23,950 nucleotides of DNA from a virus. The position numbers were made by a program, and so were the translations under genes. Location of the stretch: the IMG/VR virus record IMGVR_UViG_3300010885_011718, positions 1-23,950 of that record; one strand, given 5' to 3'. Shown one piece after another: positions 2,886 through 15,547 of the stretch (within the stretch, counting starts at the first letter, position 1; each line of letters begins with the position of its first letter). The notes beneath the pieces are model-generated. The model was not told where the DNA came from. It made no database searches and saw only the letters and a list, made by a program, of their open reading frames with translations.

Positions 2886-3797
2886 TTAAGAAGGATTTTG
2901 CATTTGCGCAGCAGTTCGACTGATGTCAGCTAATGCACTCGCCATTGAAGGAGAGATTTTTTGTGTGCCTTGTCCACCTGATGGTGGAATAAACTGTGTG
3001 CCTGAAGGTATTGCTGGTGTGCCACCACCGTTCGAATCCTTCAATAATTTATTCTCCTGCAAAACTAATGAATGCAAATCTGAAAATGCAAATTCTTTTG
3101 ACCCATTCATCAACGGAAGTGAAGAATCCTGCGCATTCACAACCTTAGCGGACTGTGTTTCAGGATCAAAAATTAACTTGCCACCTAGGGAAGAAAGTTT
3201 TGCATTCAAGCCAGCTTCATATGCCGGAACTCTGGCAATCTCTGGAAGTGCATCATTCCAACTGATTCCGGATAAATGAGATTGCTTCCATAGTGATTCC
3301 ATTTTGCTGACATACTTGTGCTGAATCTGATTTTTTTCTGATTCAGACAGTTGTTTGTAGTCTTCTAATTCTTTCTGTTTCTCTGCGATTTTACGCACAA
3401 ATTCATCGGAGTTGCCACCTTTGCCAGATTTTCTTGCCTCTTCTTCCAATGCCTTCATCGCTCTGAATGCCAGCTTTACTTTATCGCCTGAATTCTTGGC
3501 AGATTTAATTTCAGCAATAGTTTCCAATGCCAGACCAGATTCCTTTGCCAGATCAACCACCGATTCATCATATCCCTTCATGTAATCACCGATGAAGTGA
3601 TTCTTCAAGTCCAACTTAGCTTTGGCCTGCTGCATATCCATCAGGTTTTCCCTGAATGCTGACATCGCAGAATCGGGTATTTCGAATGCTCGCAGCGTAT
3701 CTGCTGCACTCCCTGCCAATGCCAGATCCAGTTCTTGATTGTTTGACAAGCCAGCTTTTGCAGCTAATTCTTTAATTGCATCAAGTATATTTGCCAT
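2886..3797 (-). CDS. Probable capsid scaffolding protein
   Basis: This 303-residue protein probably acts as the internal scaffold for procapsid assembly. It lies directly upstream of the capsid gene, with 5 nt between stop and start. It has the usual scaffold make-up: highly helical and charged, with a coiled-coil-like stretch at about residues 105-170 (AEKQKELEDYKQLSESEKNQ is typical). A low-complexity Gly/Pro/Ser region (about 255-280) precedes a short C-terminal helix (282-300). A basic or amphipathic C-terminal helix is the usual capsid-binding element. No Ser-His-Asp protease motif or other protease signature is seen, so a fused protease is unlikely. Alternative: a general head morphogenesis protein. 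Confidence 0.68.
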   Translation of the reverse strand: MANILDAIKELAAKAGLSNNQELDLALAGSAADTLRAFEIPDSAMSAFRENLMDMQQAKAKLDLKNHFIGDYMKGYDESVVDLAKESGLALETIAEIKSAKNSGDKVKLAFRAMKALEEEARKSGKGGNSDEFVRKIAEKQKELEDYKQLSESEKNQIQHKYVSKMESLWKQSHLSGISWNDALPEIARVPAYEAGLNAKLSSLGGKLIFDPETQSAKVVNAQDSSLPLMNGSKEFAFSDLHSLVLQENKLLKDSNGGGTPAIPSGTQFIPPSGGQGTQKISPSMASALADISRTAAQMQNPS

Positions 3798-3798
3798 G

Positions 3799-4176
3799 TT
3801 ATTGTTCGGTGGTTATGTTATCAGCACTTTTCTTGCTTTCCTTCTCCATTGCTTTAAGCTGCTTCATCAAGTCTGAATTGTTGGCCAGTTGCATCAACAA
3901 GTCTGGATTTGATAAAGAATTCTGATCAATCGGCTGGATATTGCTCTGCATATAACTTGGCGCATTGCCATAAGGTCTAATCATCTGCCATGTTCTGCTG
4001 CGTTTATTCAATGGTTTTTCAAGAATTGATAACGCAATTGATGCCGTAACGGTAATGTCAAATGGCTTGTCTTGAAATCCAGTTTTAGGATCTTTTTCCC
4101 ATCTGGTTACCTGGACTTGTGCGCCTTTGCCATCTTTAGCGATGGCATCTCTGATGTATTGAAGTTGATCTTGCAT
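3799..4176 (-). CDS. Hypothetical protein upstream of scaffold
   Basis: This 125-residue protein of unknown function is encoded one base upstream of the scaffold start, so it is probably made late with the head proteins. Residues 1-60 are mixed, with a WEKDPKTGFQDKPFDITVTAS segment. The middle has a Pro/Asn/Gln-rich linker (about 69-90), and the C-terminal 35 residues form a Gln/Lys-rich helix with LLMQLANNSDLMKQLKAME. The helical tail and the position suggest a capsid-assembly accessory or minor head protein. No known domain is apparent. Confidence 0.6.
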   Translation of the reverse strand: MQDQLQYIRDAIAKDGKGAQVQVTRWEKDPKTGFQDKPFDITVTASIALSILEKPLNKRSRTWQMIRPYGNAPSYMQSNIQPIDQNSLSNPDLLMQLANNSDLMKQLKAMEKESKKSADNITTEQ

Positions 4177-4181
4177 AATTA

Positions 4182-4847
4182 TTATTGTGTATGTTTAATT
4201 GTCGATGGATTCGACATGGTTACTTTTAATTGCATAATTAATTCCGGACTGAAACCGAATGATTTGATCTGGCCTTGTAAGCCAGTCAACTGCCAGTCAA
4301 CGCATCCAAGTTGAACATTTGTGTTCCGATAGAAGTATTCTGCTGCTTTCTTGTTAATGGCATATGCATGAGTTAACCACATACCAGCACCGGAATATAA
4401 TGTCTTGAAGAATGGATTCTGGACAATTTCCAGCCGGTCTTCAATGCTTCCTCTTATTCGCTTATATCCAAAATTAATGTAATCCCATTCTGGAAGTGAA
4501 TCAAAATTGGCTACAAAATCAAGAAATTGATCAGATTTAAATCTGGCATCATCTTCAAGTATTAGCACAGTTTCTACATCACCTTCAGCTATCAATTTCC
4601 AGATGGCCCGATGCGAAGCAAAGCATCCGATTTCAGACATTGACATCTTGGCCCTGCGATTCTGCAACTTGATTGAGTTATCAACTAAGTGATCAACATT
4701 CAATCCGCTGTTGGCCTCGTACCAGATTGGTGATTTCCCATGCTTGTCAACCAGATTAATATCCACAATATAATTTTCCATCTTCAGTCTTCTGGATGGA
4801 TAATTTTTCAGAGATATATAATAGACCTGATCGAATGGTACAATCAT
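4182..4847 (-). CDS. Glycosyltransferase family 25-like protein
   Basis: This 221-residue enzyme probably transfers a sugar from a nucleotide sugar to a glycan or protein. It has the GT25 (LPS biosynthesis glycosyltransferase) layout. The N-terminal strand VYYISLKNYPSRR (8-20) corresponds to the family's VINL..R..R start. SEIGCFASH (71-79) is the conserved helix start. VLILEDDARF (94-103) holds the acidic metal/donor site. The GAGMWLTHAYAINKKAAEYF segment matches the late conserved 'G..aY.is..aa' block. It lies among head genes on the same strand (5 nt before the 125-aa gene), so it is likely expressed late with the virion. The start at 4847 keeps the conserved N-terminal strand intact. The acceptor is unknown. 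Confidence 0.83.
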   Translation of the reverse strand: MIVPFDQVYYISLKNYPSRRLKMENYIVDINLVDKHGKSPIWYEANSGLNVDHLVDNSIKLQNRRAKMSMSEIGCFASHRAIWKLIAEGDVETVLILEDDARFKSDQFLDFVANFDSLPEWDYINFGYKRIRGSIEDRLEIVQNPFFKTLYSGAGMWLTHAYAINKKAAEYFYRNTNVQLGCVDWQLTGLQGQIKSFGFSPELIMQLKVTMSNPSTIKHTQ

Positions 4848-4895: not shown

Positions 4896-5114
4896 ATGAG
4901 CAGAAAAGAAAAAACTGATCAACTGGTTCAGATAATTGCGAGAGAAGTGCAAGGTGATTCAGAGAATCAACCAAGCAAGAAAACTCTGGCTCTGATAGAG
5001 CAGATTGCCAGCAAAGCAATACAATCGGTAGAAACTGATTTGTTGCATAAACTTCGCAAGCATTACGCAGGACTTACACCGGAACAATTCATTCAGAAAC
5101 ATATTCTGAATTAG
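4896..5114 (+). CDS. Small hypothetical protein on an inserted + strand cassette
   Basis: This 72-residue, charged, probably all-helical protein is alone on the + strand inside the - strand virion operon. It starts at the ATG at 4896 (MSRKEKTDQLVQ). A longer reading frame exists upstream, but it would run across the promoter and into the start region of the divergent GT25 gene. It has no cysteine, no membrane segment and no helix-turn-helix that I can recognise. The C-terminal half (LLHKLRKHYAGLTPEQFIQK) resembles a short helical bundle. Its stop overlaps the stop of the convergent neck-gene candidate by 4 bases. With its own promoter it could be expressed independently of the structural genes, for example as a small regulator or host-takeover protein. 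The function is unknown. Confidence 0.6.
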   Translation: MSRKEKTDQLVQIIAREVQGDSENQPSKKTLALIEQIASKAIQSVETDLLHKLRKHYAGLTPEQFIQKHILN

Positions 5115-5581
5115 CAGTCAAGACAGACAATTGTTTCCACACAATAGAAATCCATTGAAAAGAATGCCGTTTCGAAGTTGTGTTCAGTCAGGCCAAAATA
5201 GGTTGTTGCGATGGCTTTATTGTCGAAGTCTGATCCATTATATGTTACACCTTTGGTTTGATTGAGCAGAACCGAAAGTGCATATTCTGAACTGACATTT
5301 CTTGCATTGGCAATCAGTTTGAACTTGACATTCCTTGTCAACTTATTCTTCCGGCCACCACGCACCTGATCATTAGGATCAGCAGTTGTTCGGACAAAGA
5401 AAATCACCATATCAAAACCATCGTTGATTGCGCATGGTTCATAATTCGTTGTGCTGACATAATTCGCACCATCCTGGTCGGTAATCTTTTCGACTCCTTC
5501 GCCATATATCAGAACATTGGATATGTTGCCAGTTATCTGTTGGCATATCGCATCAAGGGCATTGCTTACGTTTATTTTCAT
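5111..5581 (-). CDS. Putative neck or tail-completion protein
   Basis: This 156-residue protein starts with MKINVSNALDAICQ; the start at 5581 overlaps the upstream stop as ATGA (5578-5581). A longer upstream extension of the frame lies inside the preceding gene and is rejected. It is alpha/beta with a central basic stretch (GGRKNKLTRNVKFKL) and ends in a CLDC motif, a CxxC at the extreme C-terminus. Its pairing with the 172-aa gene and its place between adaptor-like and scaffold genes suggest a head-tail connection or tail terminator role, by analogy with the usual pair of a gp10-type protein followed by a tail terminator. The assignment is positional. The gene itself is secure. Confidence 0.55.
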   Translation of the reverse strand: MKINVSNALDAICQQITGNISNVLIYGEGVEKITDQDGANYVSTTNYEPCAINDGFDMVIFFVRTTADPNDQVRGGRKNKLTRNVKFKLIANARNVSSEYALSVLLNQTKGVTYNGSDFDNKAIATTYFGLTEHNFETAFFSMDFYCVETIVCLDC

Positions 5582-6096
5582 TGTCCTAAGTATTTTATTG
5601 CATTTTTTACTATCGATGCTAAAGCAATCTGTTCTTCTTGTTTTGTAGGATCGAATGTAATTCCAAATCGTTTTTCTAGGCTGTTTGCGATGTCGAATTG
5701 TTCCTTCGAAGTAAATGTAACACCCCAACTATTCGTACCACTTGGAACTGGCCTCCATGTCTTGAACATATCACCGGAAAATGTGAAGTCGATATAATTG
5801 GTTTGCAGACCTAGCTTCTGGCGAAGAATGATGTATGGATCTTCGTTCGTTACCTTCTTCAATCGTTTCTTGCTGCCAAATGACTGTGCCTTACTGATGG
5901 CTGACTTAATGACTCGCTGGCCATACTTTCCAATCTGACCACCATCTGATTTCTGGCCATTCTGTTGCACTCTATTCAGGATAGCCGGTGCAGTTATAAT
6001 GGCAGCTTCACGCACCACCTTGGATGCTGTGGTTGCTTCCTTGAAGTTGCGCAGCTGCTGCTTGATGAAATCACTGGTATTCTTGTAGTCTGGCAT
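5578..6096 (-). CDS. Putative virion morphogenesis / head-tail joining protein
   Basis: This is a 172-residue basic protein. The first 70 residues are helical and Lys/Arg/Gln-rich. The following part reads YIDFTFSGDMFKTWRP (about residues 101-116), then WGVTFTSKEQFDIANSLEKRFGITF (123-147). The order 'small beta unit with SG-M, then a strand, then A..-E.RFG' is what I associate with phage virion morphogenesis proteins (Mu gpG or HK97 gp10 type) that work at the neck or tail completion. It is the first - strand gene after the inserted glycosyltransferase cassette and overlaps the next gene by ATGA. No ordinary promoter for it is certain. The identification is by pattern only. Confidence 0.6.
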   Translation of the reverse strand: MPDYKNTSDFIKQQLRNFKEATTASKVVREAAIITAPAILNRVQQNGQKSDGGQIGKYGQRVIKSAISKAQSFGSKKRLKKVTNEDPYIILRQKLGLQTNYIDFTFSGDMFKTWRPVPSGTNSWGVTFTSKEQFDIANSLEKRFGITFDPTKQEEQIALASIVKNAIKYLGQ

Positions 6097-6111: not shown

Positions 6112-6143
6112 TTTGCAGAATATATATATCTGTTATTTATTTG
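6112..6143 (+). promoter_or_regulatory. Bacteroidetes-type promoter of the glycosyltransferase cassette
   Basis: TTTG (6112-6115) and TTTATTTG (6136-6143) are 20 nt apart, the same phasing as the promoter at 4848-4879. Both copies also share the extension TTTGCA at the upstream box and ATTTGC at the downstream box. The -7 box differs from TAnnTTTG at one base. The ATG at 6165 is 21 nt downstream. The spacer is almost purely A/T. Confidence 0.6.
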
Positions 6144-6164
6144 CTGAACAAAAACAAAAATACA

Positions 6165-6434
6165 ATGAAAAATCTAATTCTTGAAAAAATCGCAGAAGCA
6201 AAAGAATCGCAAAAAATGATTGCATTGCTTGATTTAAGTTTAAATCATTTATCCTTTAATTACAAGGATATGTCATTTGATGAAATTACATCTTTGGATG
6301 AAGAATTCCTCAAAGAAAAGAATCTAATTCGAAGTATTGATGAAGAATCAACCAGTTTTAAAATTGCATCATTATATACTTCAGATTACACAGTTCATCC
6401 ATCAATTTTCATTCACTTCATTGGCATAAAATGA
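6165..6434 (+). CDS. Small hypothetical protein, first gene of the cassette
   Basis: This 89-residue acidic protein starts with MKNLILEKIAEAKESQK. The ATG at 6165 is chosen over an in-frame TTG at 6141 because the TTG lies inside the promoter's -7 box. The N-terminal two thirds are helical and rich in Asp/Glu (DEITSLDEEFLKEKN); the last 25 residues look beta-like and aromatic. The codons are very AT-rich. The stop overlaps the next start as ATGA (6431-6434). It leads the operon that ends in three glycosyltransferase-like genes. No known domain is visible and the function is unknown. Confidence 0.62.
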   Translation: MKNLILEKIAEAKESQKMIALLDLSLNHLSFNYKDMSFDEITSLDEEFLKEKNLIRSIDEESTSFKIASLYTSDYTVHPSIFIHFIGIK

Positions 6435-6532
6435 AGAAAGATGAACACCCAATGAATGCCCAATCCTGGGCATTTTTTATTGTTTCAATTATCATAATCA
6501 TAATTTTAGAAATTATCACCATATCCAAATGA
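6431..6532 (+). CDS. 33-residue single-pass membrane micro-protein
   Basis: This very short frame encodes 33 residues: a charged N-terminus (MKKDEHP), then SWAFFIVSIIIIIILEIITI (residues 12-31), a convincing single membrane helix carrying one Glu, then a final SK. It starts in the previous stop (ATGA 6431-6434), and its stop overlaps the next start (ATGA 6529-6532), so both junctions match the chain of coupled genes around it. Positive residues before the helix would favour an N-in orientation. Codons 9-15 overlap a terminator-like hairpin (6455-6478). Possible roles are membrane anchoring of a glycosyltransferase complex or a small membrane-active phage protein; neither is shown. The frame could also be chance between a terminator and the next gene, but the double overlap argues against that. 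Confidence 0.5.
   Translation: MKKDEHPMNAQSWAFFIVSIIIIIILEIITISK
6455..6478 (+). terminator. Terminator-like hairpin inside the micro-ORF
   Basis: A perfect 8-bp stem, AATGCCCA (6455-6462) with TGGGCATT (6467-6474), has a 4-nt loop and is followed by TTTTAT. It would stop + strand transcription after the 89-aa gene, or act as an attenuator whose folding depends on ribosomes translating the micro-ORF. The U-tract is short, so read-through is likely. Confidence 0.5.
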
Positions 6533-6717
6533 TGTACCACATTGCATACACACTTGAAGAAGTCATTGGCAAAAATGGAATTGCGTTCATCCAACACGCT
6601 AAGGTAGTCATTCTCTCTAATCCTGATGAAATCAATCATGTTGTGATTTCTTCCTTTGGCGATTATCGCAAAAACACAAAATGCAATATTAACAATTTAA
6701 AAATCGGTGAAAAATGA
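6529..6717 (+). CDS. Small hypothetical protein upstream of glycosyltransferases
   Basis: This 62-residue protein has ATG at 6529, with a second in-frame ATG at 6532. The first is preferred because it overlaps the micro-ORF stop as ATGA. The stop (6715-6717) again overlaps the next start as ATGA. The N-terminal part, MYHIAYTLEEVIGKNGIAFIQHAKVVILS, looks like a small alpha/beta unit, followed by a polar, Lys/Asn-rich tail. I recognise no domain. Translational coupling to the glycosyltransferase gene suggests co-function, but nothing in the sequence says what it does. Confidence 0.6.
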   Translation: MMYHIAYTLEEVIGKNGIAFIQHAKVVILSNPDEINHVVISSFGDYRKNTKCNINNLKIGEK

Positions 6718-7403
6718 ATGAAATCACAGTCGCAATTACATCATGCGGAAGATATGATTTATTGCAGCGGACAATTACCAGCCTTGTTAAGTATTGGGAT
6801 GGCAGTCCGCCAAAGGAATTATTGATTTATGAGGATGCCGAAATTCATGGTACAGAAATCAATGATTATAAGGAATTGATTGCACGATGGTTGGACAATT
6901 TTTGTCCATTTGAAGTATTCGGGATTGGTCAGGATAGGAAGGGCCAGATCATTGCCATTGATACCATGTATTCACGAATCACCACACCATACATATTCCA
7001 TTGTGAGGATGACTGGGAATTTGATCGGACTGGATTTGTTCAAGATTCAATGAAGATATTGGAAGCAGCACCGACCATTTGCCAAGTATGGATTAGATAT
7101 CCGAATGACCGGAACAAACATCCGGTAACTGGACAAATTATGTCCATAAATGGTGTGCGATGTCAGATGATGTCAACCAGATACAAGGAAACATGGAGAG
7201 GATTTTCATTCAATCCTGGACTGCGTAGGCTGGATGATTACCATCAGATTGGTTCATATAGTAAGTTGACATTGTTCAACAGAAGCAGACCATATGAATC
7301 GGAAATCGCAGTTGGTGAAGCATATTACAATGCTGGATTCAAGGCTGCAACATTGTTATCTGGATACGTTAGGCACACCGGTAATCAAAGACATATAAAC
7401 TGA
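6714..7403 (+). CDS. Glycosyltransferase, GT-A fold, family 2-like
   Basis: This 229-residue protein is probably a nucleotide-sugar-dependent glycosyltransferase. The N-terminus ITVAITSCGRYDLLQRTITS (4-23) is the classic first strand and helix of GT-A enzymes, where the donor nucleotide binds. Residues 93-103 (YIFHCEDDWEF) give a hydrophobic strand ending in an acidic cluster that fits the DxD-like metal site. Later WRGFSFNPGLRR (181-192) resembles the acceptor-side loop. There is no membrane segment, so it is likely cytoplasmic. It overlaps both neighbours (ATGA before, TGATG after) and is the first of three tandem enzymes, which may add successive sugars. Donor and acceptor cannot be deduced. 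Confidence 0.78.
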   Translation: MNEITVAITSCGRYDLLQRTITSLVKYWDGSPPKELLIYEDAEIHGTEINDYKELIARWLDNFCPFEVFGIGQDRKGQIIAIDTMYSRITTPYIFHCEDDWEFDRTGFVQDSMKILEAAPTICQVWIRYPNDRNKHPVTGQIMSINGVRCQMMSTRYKETWRGFSFNPGLRRLDDYHQIGSYSKLTLFNRSRPYESEIAVGEAYYNAGFKAATLLSGYVRHTGNQRHIN

Positions 7404-8098
7404 TGGAAATATTCACTAGATCGAACAATGATATGCTGTATAAGATGGCATCTTCATTTTGGCCGAAGGATGTAACTGCACATCAAATCAAAGGAATGCA
7501 GCATTGGACTGATGCAGTTGGCTTCTTGTACCACGTTATCAATAATTCCAAGGACATTGCAGTCATTGTTGATGAAGATTGCTTCATATACGATTGGAAG
7601 ACCTGCAATGAAGTGATTCAATGCTGCATCGACTACAAATATACCAACATTGGAATGCCTGATGGTGGAGTTTGTGAACATCGACAGCATAGTTGGATCA
7701 CTCAGAATCCATTCTTTCTTGTCCTAAATTGTGCCTTAATTCGTGACTTGATTCAGTCATCTGGATTCACTTATCAGCAGATAAATATGATGGGTTATCA
7801 TCCAATGATGGAAGAAAAACAACCATTTTTTCTGCATGATGGAATTGGATTCAATCATGATAATGTTGAGCCATTCACTGGACTGTTCTACTTCCTGATG
7901 TATTATGGAAATCCGTATTACTTGGATGCAGTTCAGCATTTCGATGGCATTAGTACCGGCCTGATTCACGTTGAAAAACAATTCTGCTGGCATTCATGGT
8001 ATTCAAGGGAATATCTTGAAAGTGTATCTCACAACCACCGAATTAATGATCTATTCGTAAAATCGCAATATCTTCATGACATTCATCATTCCATATAG
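7403..8098 (+). CDS. Putative glycosyltransferase-like protein, unassigned family
   Basis: This 231-residue protein has a hydrophobic strand ending in an acidic triad, IAVIVDEDCFIYD (52-64), placed like the DxD site of GT-A glycosyltransferases. It also has GMPDGGVCEHRQHSW (84-98) and NPFFLVLN (102-109), plausible donor-loop and core-strand segments. The first 50 residues hold HWTDAVGFLYHV, similar to the helix that precedes the DxD strand. The second half is rich in His, Tyr and Trp (HIEKQ-like and CWHSWYSREY at about 205-214), a possible acceptor or metal region. It is translationally coupled (TGATG) to the GT2-like gene and overlaps the GT7 gene by 23 nt, so a role in the same pathway is likely. 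The family is not one I can name. Confidence 0.6.
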   Translation: MEIFTRSNNDMLYKMASSFWPKDVTAHQIKGMQHWTDAVGFLYHVINNSKDIAVIVDEDCFIYDWKTCNEVIQCCIDYKYTNIGMPDGGVCEHRQHSWITQNPFFLVLNCALIRDLIQSSGFTYQQINMMGYHPMMEEKQPFFLHDGIGFNHDNVEPFTGLFYFLMYYGNPYYLDAVQHFDGISTGLIHVEKQFCWHSWYSREYLESVSHNHRINDLFVKSQYLHDIHHSI

Positions 8099-8681
8099 AG
8101 ATCGGGAAAAACATCTTGCTGAATTGATTCCGCATCTGGTGCAGCATGGCAGGATTATAGTTGTTGAACAATGCGATGACAAGCCATTTAATCGAGGCAA
8201 GATGATTAACATCGGATTCAAGTATATTGATCCGCAGGAAACTGCAATCTGCATCCATGATGTCGATATGATACCGGTCAAGGTAAATTATGCGCTAGAT
8301 TCATTTGTTTGGCATCTTGCTGGTAAAGTTCAGCAGTTCATTTATAGGATGCCCTACAAGGAATACTTCGGTGGTGTTGTCATTTTTCCGGTAGATATTT
8401 TTGCAAAAATCAACGGTTTTTCAAACGAATATTGGGGATGGGGTGCAGAAGATGATGACCTATATCGCAGATGTGCATCCAAAAGAGTAAAGATATTCCG
8501 ACAGCCTGGAAGGTTTGACAGCTTATCACATCCACACCAGAAAAGCATCAATCTTCACAAAGAAAATCTGATTACCTTGAAAAAAGGTTTGAATTTCGAT
8601 TCTGGGCTGTCAGATTGTATGGAAAACGTGAAAATAATTTCAAAGCAAATGAAGGATTATACCTTAATTTGCGCAGGGTAA
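8076..8681 (+). CDS. Beta-1,4-galactosyltransferase-like protein (GT7)
   Basis: This 201-residue enzyme carries the full set of motifs of the GT7 beta-1,4-galactosyltransferase family, best known from animals. FIIPYRDREKHL (3-14) is the start of the fold. FNRGKMINIGF (38-48) matches the FNRAKLLNVGF block. HDVDMIP (61-67) has the metal-binding DVD. YFGGVVIF (97-104) is followed by GFSNEYWGWGAEDDDLYRR (114-132), the signature WGWGxEDDD loop with the catalytic acid. His152/His154 lie where the family's metal-binding His is expected. No stem or membrane anchor is present, so it is a soluble catalytic domain. It is the last gene of the cassette, followed by a terminator. It likely adds galactose or an N-acetylhexosamine; the acceptor is unknown. 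Confidence 0.9.
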   Translation: MTFIIPYRDREKHLAELIPHLVQHGRIIVVEQCDDKPFNRGKMINIGFKYIDPQETAICIHDVDMIPVKVNYALDSFVWHLAGKVQQFIYRMPYKEYFGGVVIFPVDIFAKINGFSNEYWGWGAEDDDLYRRCASKRVKIFRQPGRFDSLSHPHQKSINLHKENLITLKKGLNFDSGLSDCMENVKIISKQMKDYTLICAG

Positions 8682-8708
8682 ATTTTAAGATTTAATTGGT
8701 TTAACATC

Positions 8709-8741
8709 TAAAAGCCAGCGGATATTCTGCTGGTTTTTTTT
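8709..8741 (+). terminator. Intrinsic terminator after the glycosyltransferase cassette
   Basis: CCAGC (8715-8719) and GCTGG (8729-8733) form a stem, extended by A/T pairs with one bulged G, followed by an 8-T run (8734-8741). It lies 28 nt after the GT7 stop and ends + strand transcription before the convergent gene that stops at 8740. On the - strand the U-tract is only four bases, so virion-operon transcripts may read through. Confidence 0.78.
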
Positions 8742-9777
8742 ATGGTCGCAATCTGCCAACCTGAACCAAAGCAGCTTCTTCACAATTGAAGCATAGGCCT
8801 TCAGAACGTAAATTAAGTTGTCTGGCCCATGTTGCCAGCATTGCCTTATATTTCTCATCCATCGTTGCCATGTTACGTTCTGTGATGTCTTTATTGCTTT
8901 GTGCAAAATAGTTACCACGTTGTGTCAGCATCTTATTCCACAATATTTGATAGGCTAATTTATAGGCATATGCCATTTTTAGGAATTCACGTTGTCCACA
9001 AATAAATGCATCAAGTGAGCAAAGCAATTCTGCATCCCAATAGATTCCAGATTGACTGTTATCCTGCGACCAGTCCACACCAAGACCATATTCCAATGGT
9101 GCTGTGATTGGGAAAATTGACCAACCATTGCGCCATAGATAAGTAAATCTGGTTGCACATTCGATGTCCATCTGATTCCAGCCATAGTCAATGAATGATC
9201 CTTGCAAAGTATCCAGATCAGTACAATCGACCATCAATGCGATGTTCACTTTGTCAAAATCAGAGTAAAAAACTTGATTCACCGGTATGTAATTCATACC
9301 TGGAAGAAGTTCAACAGAATCACTCCACAACAACTTGGCATCTTGTGTCTGGTATATCTTTAAGGATACATCCTGAACTGCGATTGCACCAGCATTGTAT
9401 ATGTATAGCTGCTTTACTCGCAGACCTAAATACTTGCTGCCTTGAATTGATACGAACACACCACGATATTCTGCTGCTGCTGGCAATGGATCAATCTGCT
9501 GCCAGTTCTGTACGAAGTTTTTGGAAGTCTGGAACAACACCTGATCTAACTGTGCTTCGGCACTTAGATACAAGGCATTCTGAATGTCAAATTTGAAATC
9601 CTCATATGCAGATCGCTGGATTGATTCCCACACACCAGAATAAGTAATCTGGTCGGTGGTTGCAATCTTATCCAGCAGTTCAGTTGACATGCCTGGCAGA
9701 TCGTTAATCCATAGATTAGACAATGGTGTGCCAGCTGTGCATGATCGAAGTCCTATGTAATTTTCTAAGCAATTCAT
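8740..9777 (-). CDS. Putative head-tail adaptor / structural protein
   Basis: This 345-residue protein is encoded just after the MuF-like gene in transcription order, a common position for the connector that sits under the portal. The N-terminal 60 residues (MNCLENYIGLRSC, then PLSNLWINDLPGMS) look helical and resemble the opening of adaptor proteins. The centre (about 100-200) is beta-rich with VFVSIQGSKYLGLRVKQLYI, and the C-terminal third is helical with several Cys and ends LCFNCEEAALVQVG. A CxxC (LCFNC) near residues 328-333 is notable. The start at 9777 is 12 nt after the upstream stop. The role is inferred from position; I do not recognise the family with certainty. Alternative: a minor virion protein unrelated to the neck. 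Confidence 0.55.
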   Translation of the reverse strand: MNCLENYIGLRSCTAGTPLSNLWINDLPGMSTELLDKIATTDQITYSGVWESIQRSAYEDFKFDIQNALYLSAEAQLDQVLFQTSKNFVQNWQQIDPLPAAAEYRGVFVSIQGSKYLGLRVKQLYIYNAGAIAVQDVSLKIYQTQDAKLLWSDSVELLPGMNYIPVNQVFYSDFDKVNIALMVDCTDLDTLQGSFIDYGWNQMDIECATRFTYLWRNGWSIFPITAPLEYGLGVDWSQDNSQSGIYWDAELLCSLDAFICGQREFLKMAYAYKLAYQILWNKMLTQRGNYFAQSNKDITERNMATMDEKYKAMLATWARQLNLRSEGLCFNCEEAALVQVGRLRP

Positions 9778-9789
9778 AATTCAAAGATA

Positions 9790-10659
9790 TTATTTTAATC
9801 CTGCCGTTCCATTTCGTTTTGCAATCTCATATTGCACCTTAGTTACTGGCCAGATGGTATGTCTGCAATTATAACCACCAGCATTGGTGAAAATAGTATT
9901 TTCATTTGTTCCAGCCATCCTTCCATTCCAATTGCCCAACTTCGACCAGTTTTGCACTTCTTTTTTTGTAAAGTATCTGCCAGTTCTTGGCTTGCAAAAA
10001 CTTCTGGAATCGGCAATCAATGTACCGGCATAGAAGTAATATGCAAGATTTAAATCTTCGCTGACTGTCTGAATATATTCACGATTGAATCCCATAACAG
10101 CATCATTAGTTGTCTGCTTGATGTACCGGTTAAGGAATGGTTGATCTGCTTCTGTGCCTTCAATGAACTTGCGAAGTGTAGCATTCAAGGTTGTACGATT
10201 TGAAATGCCAGAAACATTGGCCTTTAATACTTCTGTGATTGCATTACCGAAATTGTTGCGAATGCCAGCACCTAGAAGATTGTCCTTTGTCAATGTGATA
10301 TTGGCATTCAGGATTTCCTTGTATAATTCATCTTTGGCAGAAAAACCATCAATCAATTCAGAAAAATAGGCATCACTTAGATTTTTTAATTCCTTAAATC
10401 CTGTGATTACATTGCCAACTTCCTGCTGGTATTCCTTATTATTGATGATAGTTGCAGCGATCTGCTGCTTTAATGTTATAGTTTCACGCAATAGTTTTGC
10501 ACGATCCTTAGCATCCAATGGAAGTTGATTTGCCAGTTCAATCACTTGGTCAGATAGCTTGGAAAAAATCAAAGGTAATCGATTGTCCATGCTGCTTTCA
10601 ATACTTGCTTGCAGCAATTGGATTTTCTTGATTATCTCTAATTGTTTTTGCGTGATCAT
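9790..10659 (-). CDS. MuF-type minor head protein
   Basis: This 289-residue protein has the C-terminal Mu F-like domain that many phages encode next to the portal; such proteins are internal minor head proteins of the procapsid. The diagnostic block is DSRSFCKPRTGRYFTKKEV (217-235), followed by GRMAGTN and GGYNCRHTIWPV (261-272). This is the Cys/His/Arg arrangement typical of the family. The first 130 residues are helical, as in the family's N-terminal portal-contacting part. The start overlaps the portal stop as ATGA (10656-10659), as expected for a portal-MuF pair. MuF domains are sometimes fused to toxins, but there is no extra domain here. Confidence 0.85.
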   Translation of the reverse strand: MITQKQLEIIKKIQLLQASIESSMDNRLPLIFSKLSDQVIELANQLPLDAKDRAKLLRETITLKQQIAATIINNKEYQQEVGNVITGFKELKNLSDAYFSELIDGFSAKDELYKEILNANITLTKDNLLGAGIRNNFGNAITEVLKANVSGISNRTTLNATLRKFIEGTEADQPFLNRYIKQTTNDAVMGFNREYIQTVSEDLNLAYYFYAGTLIADSRSFCKPRTGRYFTKKEVQNWSKLGNWNGRMAGTNENTIFTNAGGYNCRHTIWPVTKVQYEIAKRNGTAGLK

Positions 10660-12458
10660 CCGACTGGCATTATTGGCACAATACCAGCTTTGATTTCATC
10701 AAGTTTAATCTGCGACAATCCAATCAGTAATGCCTTTTGCTCTGGCATCGGCATCTTTACGAAATCCGGATTGGCATCAATCAGCTGCGCAATAAATGCA
10801 GGAAGGTATGTACTCATGATGTAGTCAATCTCTGTGCATCCCATACTTTCCTTGATTGCCATCTTTTCATCTGGCTTCTTAAATGGCAAAGGATCAAGTT
10901 TGTTGACCAATTTCAGCACAGTCAATTGATAGCTATTTTCACCATACAATTTTTCGGTGTAATCCATCTCAATGCCATTGATGATGATCGGATTGAAATT
11001 ATTATTCCTTGCAGTTGACAACATATCGCCAATCATTGATGTGGTTAGTACATCGAAATCAGTTGGAACAGTTATCTGTGGCAATGCTGCAATCTGCTTT
11101 TCATAATTCAGCAGCCCAGAATCAACAAGACCTGAATATCGTTGCAGCAGGATAAGTTCACACAGATGCTCATACACAGCTGACAGATGAACAGCAACTG
11201 AATAGCAGAATGTATTGATTTCTTTGCGATCATACTCCTTCGCAATGCCTGATTGATTGCTTGGAATTTGAGTCAATATTTCCAGACCGATTGCCTGAAA
11301 TCCTTGATATATTTTATCTTCAATATCCTTCTTGAATGCATCAACAGAATCCAATGGTCGTTCGATATACCCCATCGGTGGTGTTGGGATATTGACCGGA
11401 TTAGGTTGCAATGCTGATGCCTTTGGAAGATTGACTTCAACCACACCGAATGGTGTAGCAGAATCCAGCCCAGATCCGTTGCAAGTTCCACAACCAATCA
11501 GTTCATTGTTTTTGGACTTAGTTTGTCCAGATCCCTTGCAAGTTTTGCAGTTGGATGTTTTCACCATCCACTTCTGCGGAAGTGCGTGAATGGCCCATAT
11601 GATGTTCAAATCATCTGTGCGATATAATGCTTCATTCCATGCTGGAAGACATGGTGCAAGAATCGAATCGTACAGCAGATGACCATCTTCGACTTCATCA
11701 ATGATGTTACCAACTTTAACAACTGGCAACCTTCTAAAGTTAAATTCTTGTGAATAGATTTCGAATGAAAATACACTTTTTTCGTATGGCATCACCTGGC
11801 GATACAGCAAGATTCCGCCTTCGTGAATTGCCATGAATTGATCCCATTCCCTACCGGATGCATCACAATATTCTTCAACCTTCACAATGACAACATTGTC
11901 ATCTTCATAAATCAAATCTTCAGAATCAAAAATCTGTGGATATGGTTTTGTGAAATCAAGTTGAATCAGTTCTGGTTGTTCAATCCAATCGTCTATGTCT
12001 GGAAGCATCAGAACAATTGCATTGGCATCCTGAAGATAAGTCTTCAAGAAGACATTGAATGTCCATGTTTCTAGGTTTTTGAATTTTGGCAGCTGAAATG
12101 TTACATAATCAGCAAGTGTATTTGGTTGACCATCTACAAATTCAACGATGCCAGTTTCTGCAAAATCCTTTTTAAACTTAATCTTAAAGTCATCCGCTTG
12201 CTGTATTTTTTGAAGAAAAATATAAATGCGACCAGTTGATGACATCGTTACCGGTTGCCATCTTCGCCTTCTGTATTCCTTCATCCATGCTTCTTCAGAT
12301 GGATGTTGCGTCCTTAGAAGGTCATCAGGGTAATCAGTATCGAAATGGTATTCCAATACCTCTGCCTTTTCTCTGGCTTCTTCAATATAGTCCAATTCGC
12401 CATTACGCACCTTACTGGTGGATAATAAACTACTGATTGCCCTGATTAACTCTTCCAT
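10656..12458 (-). CDS. Portal protein with DnaJ-like zinc-binding insert
   Basis: This 600-residue protein is the probable dodecameric portal, the channel through which DNA enters the head. Support comes from size, its pairing with a MuF gene, and portal-like architecture: a helical N-terminus, a beta-rich wing (about 140-250), then the clip/stem and a long helical crown. The region IGLEILTQIPSNQSGIAKEYDR (about 390-411) matches the place where portals carry the conserved 'S-G-A-E' helix. Residues 304-330 hold two CxxCxGxG repeats (CKTCKGSG and CGTCNGSG, 11 residues apart), the zinc-binding repeat of DnaJ. This is an unusual insert just before the presumed stem. The start at 12458 is 3 nt from the upstream stop, in the same operon. 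Confidence 0.75.
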   Translation of the reverse strand: MEELIRAISSLLSTSKVRNGELDYIEEAREKAEVLEYHFDTDYPDDLLRTQHPSEEAWMKEYRRRRWQPVTMSSTGRIYIFLQKIQQADDFKIKFKKDFAETGIVEFVDGQPNTLADYVTFQLPKFKNLETWTFNVFLKTYLQDANAIVLMLPDIDDWIEQPELIQLDFTKPYPQIFDSEDLIYEDDNVVIVKVEEYCDASGREWDQFMAIHEGGILLYRQVMPYEKSVFSFEIYSQEFNFRRLPVVKVGNIIDEVEDGHLLYDSILAPCLPAWNEALYRTDDLNIIWAIHALPQKWMVKTSNCKTCKGSGQTKSKNNELIGCGTCNGSGLDSATPFGVVEVNLPKASALQPNPVNIPTPPMGYIERPLDSVDAFKKDIEDKIYQGFQAIGLEILTQIPSNQSGIAKEYDRKEINTFCYSVAVHLSAVYEHLCELILLQRYSGLVDSGLLNYEKQIAALPQITVPTDFDVLTTSMIGDMLSTARNNNFNPIIINGIEMDYTEKLYGENSYQLTVLKLVNKLDPLPFKKPDEKMAIKESMGCTEIDYIMSTYLPAFIAQLIDANPDFVKMPMPEQKALLIGLSQIKLDEIKAGIVPIMPVG

Positions 12459-13327: not shown

Positions 13328-15547
13328 TTAACAGCCTAAACAGCTGTTGTTGTAGGGCTGATAGCCCTGCACGAGTGCCTGAAACTTCATTTGGCTCAAA
13401 GTTTCGAAGGAGCTTTCATTGGTGAAATCTTGAGTTGTGGCAACCTCAATATCACCATTGACAAAGATATTCTGATTTTTCCAGATCAAAAACTTGTGTC
13501 TTGTGGCAGAAGTCATGGCCTTGATAGCTGGCAAATCTAAATAATCAGTATGCAAATCTAATGATAAATCTGTTTTATTCTGCGGTCTGCGATGAATTCC
13601 ATTTGACTGCCGGTATAATGATTCTTCTAGTTGAATTTTCTCACCACCGCCATTGATGCCCATCCGGATACGTTGTGTCCAATTTGGATAGTATTCGAAT
13701 CCTTCAACAATTCCATCACCCCAGAATTCTATGATTTCTGAAAAACATTCAAAATTATCAATGCGAATCGGGTTAGATGTGGAATATATTTCTAACGCTG
13801 ATTCTGACTGGTTGTATAGCCCAAATTTATATTCACCAGTTGAAACCGATGGAATGTCAATTGATGCTTGTAGTTGTGTGGAAGTTATTATATTTTGAAT
13901 ATATGGAATTTCTAAAAAAATATTTACAATTTCTTGAGTTGCAATATTTCTTAATAATAAAAATGCGTGTGGATTTGTTATACATTCTAATGTATTAGAA
14001 GTATAACTTATATTTGCAAGTCCAGTAATATCATTATAAGAACTAATAACTAAAGTATTATTTGAATCTGATATAATATTTTCTAAATCTATTATCCATT
14101 GTGGATATTCATATGTGTTATAATATGTATCTAAAGGAGTGGTATTAGCATAAATTAATTCGTCTGTAAGTTGATTTGGGCCATTAAAAATAAAAATACC
14201 ATATTCATAATAAACTTCATAAGGTGGTGTAATATTTACATAATTTCTAACTCCATTAAAATATCCTTCTAAATTTAAATTAAAACCATCAAAAAGAATT
14301 GGTCTACTACAAATATTACAATTAATTGTTATTTTATTTTGAGTTCCAATTTCCTGAATGAAATTTTCTTGGCAATCAAACAACCCAATTTTTGATTCTA
14401 TTATTCCAGTTGTGTTGCTGATTGATGGAATTACATTGAACTGCAAGTGGTCAGCTGTCTTGGCTGGCATCGGATAGTATTCAACTGGAATGTCGCAGGC
14501 ATCGGTAAAGCAAATCTGCTCGAAATCATACCATAAATTTTCAGGATCAATGGAGTATCCTTTTCCAACCGTTGGTGGGTATGGCAATTGTGTTGTCGGT
14601 GAAGTAATTTCCATCACTTCCAATAGACCTATTGTGTTGCTTGTCCATCGGTTAAAAAATCTTTGCCATTTCCATTCAGCATCAAACCTTCCAATTATAG
14701 CCAATGATTCTTTATTGTCATTATTGAAAAATGTATATTGAACCCTAGGATAACCAGTCAAATCAAAACCTCCTAAAACTGCCCATCCATCTGGATAGAT
14801 TAAGTTCAATATATAGACTTCAATTTCTGCTGCTGTCTTTGTGCTGTCAAGGCCAAATTCTATGATTCTATTAATCAATAGAAGCATATACCTTTCATCG
14901 GCAGACATTGCAGAAATTTCCAAACTCCAATAAGGTGATACTGGTGCAGTAATTAGCGGATAGCGTTCACCGAATCCAGTTGTTTCATTGAATTTGCAAT
15001 CCTGAAATCTAGCCACACTTGATGTCGCAATTCCGGTGGTTGAATCATACTTATATTCAGGTGGAAAAAATGCAGCACCGTTTGCGTGAGTAATTTCCAA
15101 GGCCCTATATGCTGCTATTTCTGTTGGAAATAATGGCAGCGAATAATCGTAAGGATAGCTGACATCTGTATTTGGCGTTACGGTTGTGACAGTTATAATT
15201 CCATCTACTGTTGTAAAATCAATTACGAATTTTTGACCAGAATGAAGTGAAATTAATTGCTTATCGGTTATGTAATACTGCCAAGACTGTGTACCTGAAC
15301 CAACTGGAACCATTGGAATTGGATTGGATGGCACGAGGATAAAGTTGAAATGATAAGGTGCTGCATTCCTTTCTTCAATAATATTTCGAATCAATCTTAA
15401 TCCAAAATTTAATGATGCACCGACCGAAAATCCATTTGAAATATCAACAATAAAATCATATAGTGCATCCACAGTTGGCGTGAATGCTGGCTCAAATGCA
15501 GTATTCCAATTGGAATTTTCGAATCTGTAAAATGGATTTGTGGCCAT
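13328..15547 (-). CDS. Large tail-associated structural protein
   Basis: This 739-residue, beta-rich protein follows the fibre genes and probably forms part of the tail tip or an adhesion appendage. No named family is recognised. The N-terminal 300 residues are compact and aromatic-rich. Residues about 402-542 are encoded by a markedly AT-rich stretch (13921-14340, about 22 percent GC by hand count) and are full of Asn, Ile and Tyr. The C-terminal 180 residues return to normal composition and include WGDGIVEGFEYYP and a final CLGC. The start is coupled to the stop of the 66-aa gene (1-nt overlap at 15547). The composition break suggests that the middle module was exchanged by recombination. 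Confidence 0.55.
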   Translation of the reverse strand: MATNPFYRFENSNWNTAFEPAFTPTVDALYDFIVDISNGFSVGASLNFGLRLIRNIIEERNAAPYHFNFILVPSNPIPMVPVGSGTQSWQYYITDKQLISLHSGQKFVIDFTTVDGIITVTTVTPNTDVSYPYDYSLPLFPTEIAAYRALEITHANGAAFFPPEYKYDSTTGIATSSVARFQDCKFNETTGFGERYPLITAPVSPYWSLEISAMSADERYMLLLINRIIEFGLDSTKTAAEIEVYILNLIYPDGWAVLGGFDLTGYPRVQYTFFNNDNKESLAIIGRFDAEWKWQRFFNRWTSNTIGLLEVMEITSPTTQLPYPPTVGKGYSIDPENLWYDFEQICFTDACDIPVEYYPMPAKTADHLQFNVIPSISNTTGIIESKIGLFDCQENFIQEIGTQNKITINCNICSRPILFDGFNLNLEGYFNGVRNYVNITPPYEVYYEYGIFIFNGPNQLTDELIYANTTPLDTYYNTYEYPQWIIDLENIISDSNNTLVISSYNDITGLANISYTSNTLECITNPHAFLLLRNIATQEIVNIFLEIPYIQNIITSTQLQASIDIPSVSTGEYKFGLYNQSESALEIYSTSNPIRIDNFECFSEIIEFWGDGIVEGFEYYPNWTQRIRMGINGGGEKIQLEESLYRQSNGIHRRPQNKTDLSLDLHTDYLDLPAIKAMTSATRHKFLIWKNQNIFVNGDIEVATTQDFTNESSFETLSQMKFQALVQGYQPYNNSCLGC

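Follow-up and report, generated by a model that had tools for sequence, protein, structure and literature searches.

A reversed glycosyltransferase gene block with exchangeable contents among the head genes of an uncultured family of tailed phages

Morons, familiar from lambdoid and other tailed phages, are accessory genes that lie among the late genes with a promoter and terminator of their own and are independent of the surrounding operon. Phage systems in which the virion itself is glycosylated are, to our knowledge, few. In mycobacteriophages Che8 and Rita, glycans have been described on capsid and tail proteins (Freeman 2023, cited in PMC12619734 and PMC11256854) and, as far as the citing papers describe them, the phage-encoded glycosyltransferases are proposed or shown to decorate these proteins and lie elsewhere in the genomes of these actinobacteriophages. 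In PBCV-1, transferases and methyltransferases build the capsid glycan (A064R/A061L; PMC9614988). Here we describe a block of six genes on the plus strand (6112-8741) of a viral metagenome record of 23,950 bases (IMG/VR IMGVR_UViG_3300010885_011718; hereafter the window, to whose start all coordinates refer), lying reversed among the phage head genes. The block is like a moron in its own promoter element and terminator and in its accessory genes amid late genes, but differs in that no relative has an empty site, its core gene is inherited with the phage and just the downstream part is exchanged. It shares phage-encoded glycosyltransferases with Che8 and Rita, yet here they form a reversed head-region unit, belong to other families, probably serve a phage of Bacteroidota and have an acceptor that is proposed from context.

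The architecture given in the initial annotation was recovered: a promoter-like element, six open reading frames (ORFs) with successive overlaps of 4, 4, 4, 1 and 23 bases, and a strong terminator (Table 1) fill a gap of 2.6 kb in the portal-to-capsid operon, whose minus-strand genes 5578 and 8740 lie on either side (genes are named by their lower coordinate). Both flanking genes are part of a conserved run leading from the portal to a highly conserved protein of 372 aa. Relatives were fetched through gene 8740 (30 contigs), gene 5578, the GT2-like gene of the block (80 of 121) and the portal (80 of 181); the portal-anchored sample is unbiased towards the block, whereas the GT2-anchored part is biased towards GT2. 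After deduplication, 76 records extended at least 300 bp past the start of gene 5578, and all carried a divergent ORF within 260 bp, which belonged to one protein family in 65 of them. Both flanks were present in 64 records, the window included, and a reversed block of 791-5314 bp lay between them in every case. It had been supposed that the block was a recent insertion splitting a once contiguous operon, and a block at this place in all relatives with no empty site had been named beforehand as the finding that would speak against this; an empty site between the flanks was found in 0 of the 64.

The history of the core gene points the same way. GT2 occurs in the block of 62 records, reversed in all 62, and in 10 of the 14 portal-anchored records with both flanks. 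On a tree of portal and gene 9790 (38 records, rooted only by midpoint), one change, with starred support, is enough to explain its presence, and L078, L079 and the window, the deep branches, are all GT2-positive; one loss is therefore likeliest and GT2 in the block was probably ancestral, a single gain being formally possible given the midpoint rooting. Outside the tree, L036 and L072 also hold GT2 in the block. Distances between GT2 genes correlate with those between copies of gene 8740 (Mantel r 0.66, 0/999). The best reading of these sequence comparisons is that the reversed block is an old, fixed and vertically kept feature with exchangeable contents. An opposite-strand unit of promoter, genes and terminator need not, then, be a recent insertion, and since the same anatomy proved ancestral once relatives were compared, caution is warranted in calling morons from a single genome.

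Three glycosyltransferase-like enzymes of different types had been proposed for the block, and Pfam searches and structural models return a GT2-like, a GT-A-like and a GT7 enzyme. The product of 6714-7403 matches PF00535 (Pfam GT2) at 25.3 bits against a cut-off of 23.3 and has a conserved acidic motif, HCEDDWEF, whose EDD is of DxD type; its AlphaFold model, built with 24 relatives (predicted local distance difference test, pLDDT, 90.6), matches B4GALNT1, SpsA and TarP in the PDB, with template modelling (TM) scores of 0.55-0.66 against GT-A enzymes. The product of 7403-8098 has no Pfam match. Its model (pLDDT 84) finds mostly GT-A folds as best PDB matches, at TM scores of just 0.3-0.5 and E values of 1e-4 to 4e-3 (majastridin with UDP, STIV A197, vaccinia H3, PBCV-1 A064R and B4GalT7), and reaches a TM of about 0.5 against viral and phage GT-A models; the match to domain 1 of A064R is weak and by fold. 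The invariant DxDCFIYDW fits as well, and we count this protein as a probable transferase. The product of 8076-8681 scores above cut-off for the Glyco_transf_7N and 7C domains (PF02709, 6.1e-24; PF13733, 1.8e-12), lies near the animal beta-1,4-galactosyltransferases (E 5e-26 to B4GALT1) and keeps the active-site motifs of CAZy GT7 (B4GALT1, B4GALT7) intact: HDVDMIP (DVD), WGWGAEDDD (WGWGxEDD) and a late invariant histidine (H152 in alignment A4). It differs from those enzymes in its length of 201 aa and in having no membrane anchor; the activity that defines its family is transfer of galactose (or GalNAc) in beta-1,4 linkage. Sequence and models support a glycosyltransferase assignment for the three larger ORFs of the block, as a probable one in the case of 7403-8098.

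No membrane span was predicted in the block enzymes, the sole spanning product being the small peptide of gene 2; in the serotype-converting gtr cassette (GtrA/GtrB/Gtr), by contrast, the transferases are membrane-embedded. A fourth transferase gene, of family GT25, lies in the minus-strand operon and was missing from the initial listing. GT25 is present in all 42 GT2-positive records where this could be decided versus four of eight GT2-negative ones, counts that come from records sharing ancestry and are not independent. A strict linkage between GT2 and GT25 was considered and dropped when the portal-anchored scan showed four relatives with GT25 and without GT2. Collagen-like repeats, a possible GT25 acceptor, were sought in the window and none were found.

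Behind GT2, the genes differ by lineage. L002, the sister contig, has the 7403-GT7 pair behind GT2, as do L036 and L072; in L073 and L074 the pair lies beside gene 8740 on contigs that end before GT2, L076 has GT2 and the start of 7403, and in L075 the pair sits elsewhere. Sugar-type methyltransferases with a GT2 occupy the position in L078 and L079: an FkbM-type methyltransferase (RfbT-like in L078), a second GT2 (7.6e-20 and 1.1e-20), a 232-aa protein and an additional methyltransferase (Methyltransf_23, tested in L078). With its second GT2 and FkbM/RfbT-type S-adenosylmethionine (SAM) methyltransferases, this is a glycan-tailoring set like that of PBCV-1, where small GT-A transferases and SAM methyltransferases likewise tailor a glycan, although PBCV-1 is a eukaryotic algal virus with a fused protein and here the genes are separate and short. 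Other blocks contain DNA methylases (L025), a protein that looks C5 cytosine methylase-like by sequence (L159, L164 and L172) or small ORFs only (L003, L004), and a family search found a C5 cytosine methylase in the related record G015. In L164 (4442-5641) and L159 (5175-6755) the C5-methylase-like ORF comes after a gene 1 and a membrane peptide of the usual kind; their clade yielded no gene 8740.

The expression signals of the block are themselves conserved to differing degrees. Of 71 distinct regions upstream of gene 1, 57 carry a bipartite TTTGC-N13-24-TTGC, versus 0.03% of shuffles; the element is mostly 31-33 bp long and 19-34 bp ahead of the gene, and an exact-pattern search gave no match elsewhere in the sequences checked. 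Several relatives show TTTG-N18-21-TAnnTTTG upstream of the block, and TTTG...TAnnTTTG is the Bacteroidota promoter consensus (PMC6847099); the block element resembles this -33/-7 type rather than sigma-70, and a scan for sigma-70 promoters gave no more sites than shuffles. At the other end, the terminator region (8700-8745) folds at -17.8 kcal/mol (z -5.4). All nine pairs of the hairpin persist in six distinct versions drawn from seven records (54 of 54 cells paired and 15 double-change cells; 0 of 500 shuffles). These versions were chosen for having a hairpin, which raises the paired percentage but leaves the compensatory changes unaffected. In the large sister clade a search within 130 bp of gene 8740 yielded no hairpin of this kind. 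A further hairpin inside gene 2, whose pairing is retained with G-U changes in L002 (z there just -1.45), may be an attenuator. An Rfam search gave no match. The promoter-like element and covarying terminator thus bear out the part of the moron proposal that concerned form, whilst its insertion part finds no empty site. Splitting of the operon had also been taken to imply read-through into the downstream head genes or a promoter of their own. A reverse-strand TAnnTTTG facing gene 5578 within 110 bp, present in 89% of relatives versus 11% of shuffles, suggests the latter, a divergent promoter with a candidate -7 box at 6155-6162, so that transcription of the head genes past the block may start separately; the box could alternatively belong to the leader of the block.

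On balance we lean modestly towards a fixed, reversed accessory operon whose transferases, with GT25, glycosylate virion proteins. The architecture of the unit, its conservation, the folds and the exchange of content come from the sequence comparisons and models; its transcription, the activity and order of action of its enzymes, and their target, sugar and benefit are proposed as follows. Within the head-gene region, the oppositely transcribed unit would start at its own promoter and end at its own terminator; the conserved GT2 would lead the enzyme part, with an exchangeable set behind it, here the GT-A enzyme and GT7. Using nucleotide sugars of the host, the soluble block enzymes and the GT25 of the head operon would assemble a short cytoplasmic glycan on at least one virion protein, and a switch of downstream enzymes would alter its outer sugars. 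The span-free transferases adjoin head genes that include GT25; virion glycosylation is the simplest reading, with mycobacteriophages and PBCV-1 as precedents. In a large uncultured family, a core transferase that is kept whilst the genes behind it vary is as expected for a variable surface coat. More tentatively, the locus may be a reversed slot with a fixed promoter, usually a fixed two-gene head, a terminator fixed in part of the family and a swappable glycan set downstream of the conserved GT2, lineages altering the sugar coat of the virion by exchange of the operon's tail end. Several points weigh against virion glycosylation: the virion-protein acceptor is deduced rather than directly evidenced; the late genes are taken as structural by inference, except for portal, tape measure and a few matches to tail or virion proteins; GT25 occurs apart from GT2 in the four relatives mentioned; some lineages carry DNA methylases in the slot, which is therefore not reserved for glycans; and expression of a reversed unit could be timed differently from that of the head genes, in which case its link to the virion would be weaker.

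The initial annotation had offered virion glycosylation and alteration of host surface glycans side by side; the former emerges as the most likely role and the latter as the less likely. Were the enzymes to alter the glycans of the infected cell, for instance to block superinfection or re-adsorption, the FkbM/RfbT-type methyltransferases of L078 and L079, families annotated for O-antigen modification, would fit, as would the membrane peptide of gene 2 and a separate transcription that would permit early expression. We nevertheless think this rather unlikely: the block is without a membrane-bound transferase, its enzymes are soluble and GT25 lies inside the head operon, and no tyrosine integrase was found in 19 records, so long-term conversion is unlikely. 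Glycosylation of a modified base against restriction appears improbable. Phage glycosyltransferases acting on DNA are known from the literature, DNA methylases occupy the same slot in some relatives, and both ThyX and a C5 methylase occur in G001, a sister genome; but among the 19 records no ThyA/hydroxymethylase homologue was found, ThyX and C5 methylase occur in just three each, and most GT2-positive genomes are without a visible route to a hydroxylated base. No Tet/JBP homologue was found in these records either, a weak negative as the Tet control gave no match.

Still less probable is recent, dispensable cargo that broke a contiguous operon. The promoter-genes-terminator form, the variation of the post-GT2 genes between lineages and the movement of 7403 and GT7 as a pair, at a different place in L075, are what such cargo would show, yet the missing empty site and the ancestral position of GT2 on the tree oppose it, and it fits at most the GT-A/GT7 pair, not the whole block.

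The family probably infects Bacteroidota, given that a Shine-Dalgarno-like motif precedes few genes (2 of 131) and given the promoter type. Alignments of the capsid candidate and portal found no relative among 84,980 bacterial and archaeal species (one genome each), and a search of 50,697 phage records gave nothing for the portal or GT2.

Table 1. Features of the reversed block and its surroundings (window coordinates)
Feature	Position	Strand	Basis
GT25 glycosyltransferase, likely partner of the block	4182..4847	-	PF01755, 1.3e-20
Left flank gene, 172 aa, head-region protein	5578..6096	-	position in conserved run
Block promoter-like element, TTTGCAG...TTTATTTGC (TTTGC-N-TTGC)	6112..6144	+	conserved bipartite motif
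Candidate -7 box TATTTTTG, divergent promoter for 5578-6096 and remaining head operon	6155..6162	-	TAnnTTTG
Gene 1 of block, 89 aa	6165..6434	+	ORF call
Gene 2 of block, 33-aa single-membrane-span peptide	6431..6532	+	membrane-span prediction
Internal terminator-like hairpin inside gene 2	6454..6475	+	fold
Gene 3 of block, 62 aa	6529..6717	+	ORF call
GT2-like glycosyltransferase, conserved core enzyme of block	6714..7403	+	PF00535, motif, model
Probable GT-A-fold glycosyltransferase	7403..8098	+	model, invariant DxDCFIYDW
GT7 / beta-1,4-galactosyltransferase-like enzyme, 201 aa	8076..8681	+	PF02709, PF13733, motifs
Intrinsic terminator of block, abuts stop codon of gene 8740-9777	8710..8738	+	fold, covariation
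Right flank gene, 345 aa, head-region protein	8740..9777	-	position in conserved run

The small ORFs of the block are less uniform than its core enzyme. At the position of gene 1, relatives have a different conserved family of 100-145 aa with a GG motif; gene 1 of the window falls outside it and has therefore been replaced or has diverged. One-span peptides of 34-54 aa stand at the position of gene 2. Gene 3 looked by eye like a 61-aa gene of L003, but the two do not align.

Read along the minus strand, the surrounding operon runs from the tape measure (PF20155) through virion and tail proteins and the portal (phrog_7376) to 9790-10659 and gene 8740, and past the gap through 5578, 5111-5581, GT25, 3799-4176 and 2886-3797 to 1762-2880. 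The last, which encodes the very conserved 372-aa protein, is probably the major capsid gene, by position only; database searches gave no convincing family match for it or for either flanking gene. The L005-L008 lineage has the capsid-candidate end of the operon (1762, 2886) in inverted orientation with respect to gene 8740 and yielded no gene 5578.

A second variable stretch lies between 9790 and 8740 in most relatives (L003 5364-10001, L022 7716-10001 and others), with lysis-type genes (M15 peptidase, small membrane proteins) and reversed genes; in the window these two genes are 13 bp apart. Lysis genes lie elsewhere in G001 (L063 11248-12436), and in L072 between 5111 and GT25. An ORF that is HNH/NUMOD homing endonuclease-like by sequence sits between 9790 and 8740 in L078 (10919-11554) and L036 (4870-5457). 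Residues 304-332 of the portal (10656-12458) form a zinc-finger-like stretch (DnaJ CxxCxGxG, 0.0019, below cut-off) whose cysteines are conserved across relatives. Finally, the protein encoded at 13328-15547 has conserved ends and a middle that varies between near-identical relatives (identity 69% then 96%, with about 115 residues left unmatched), a pattern like that of a host-contact protein.

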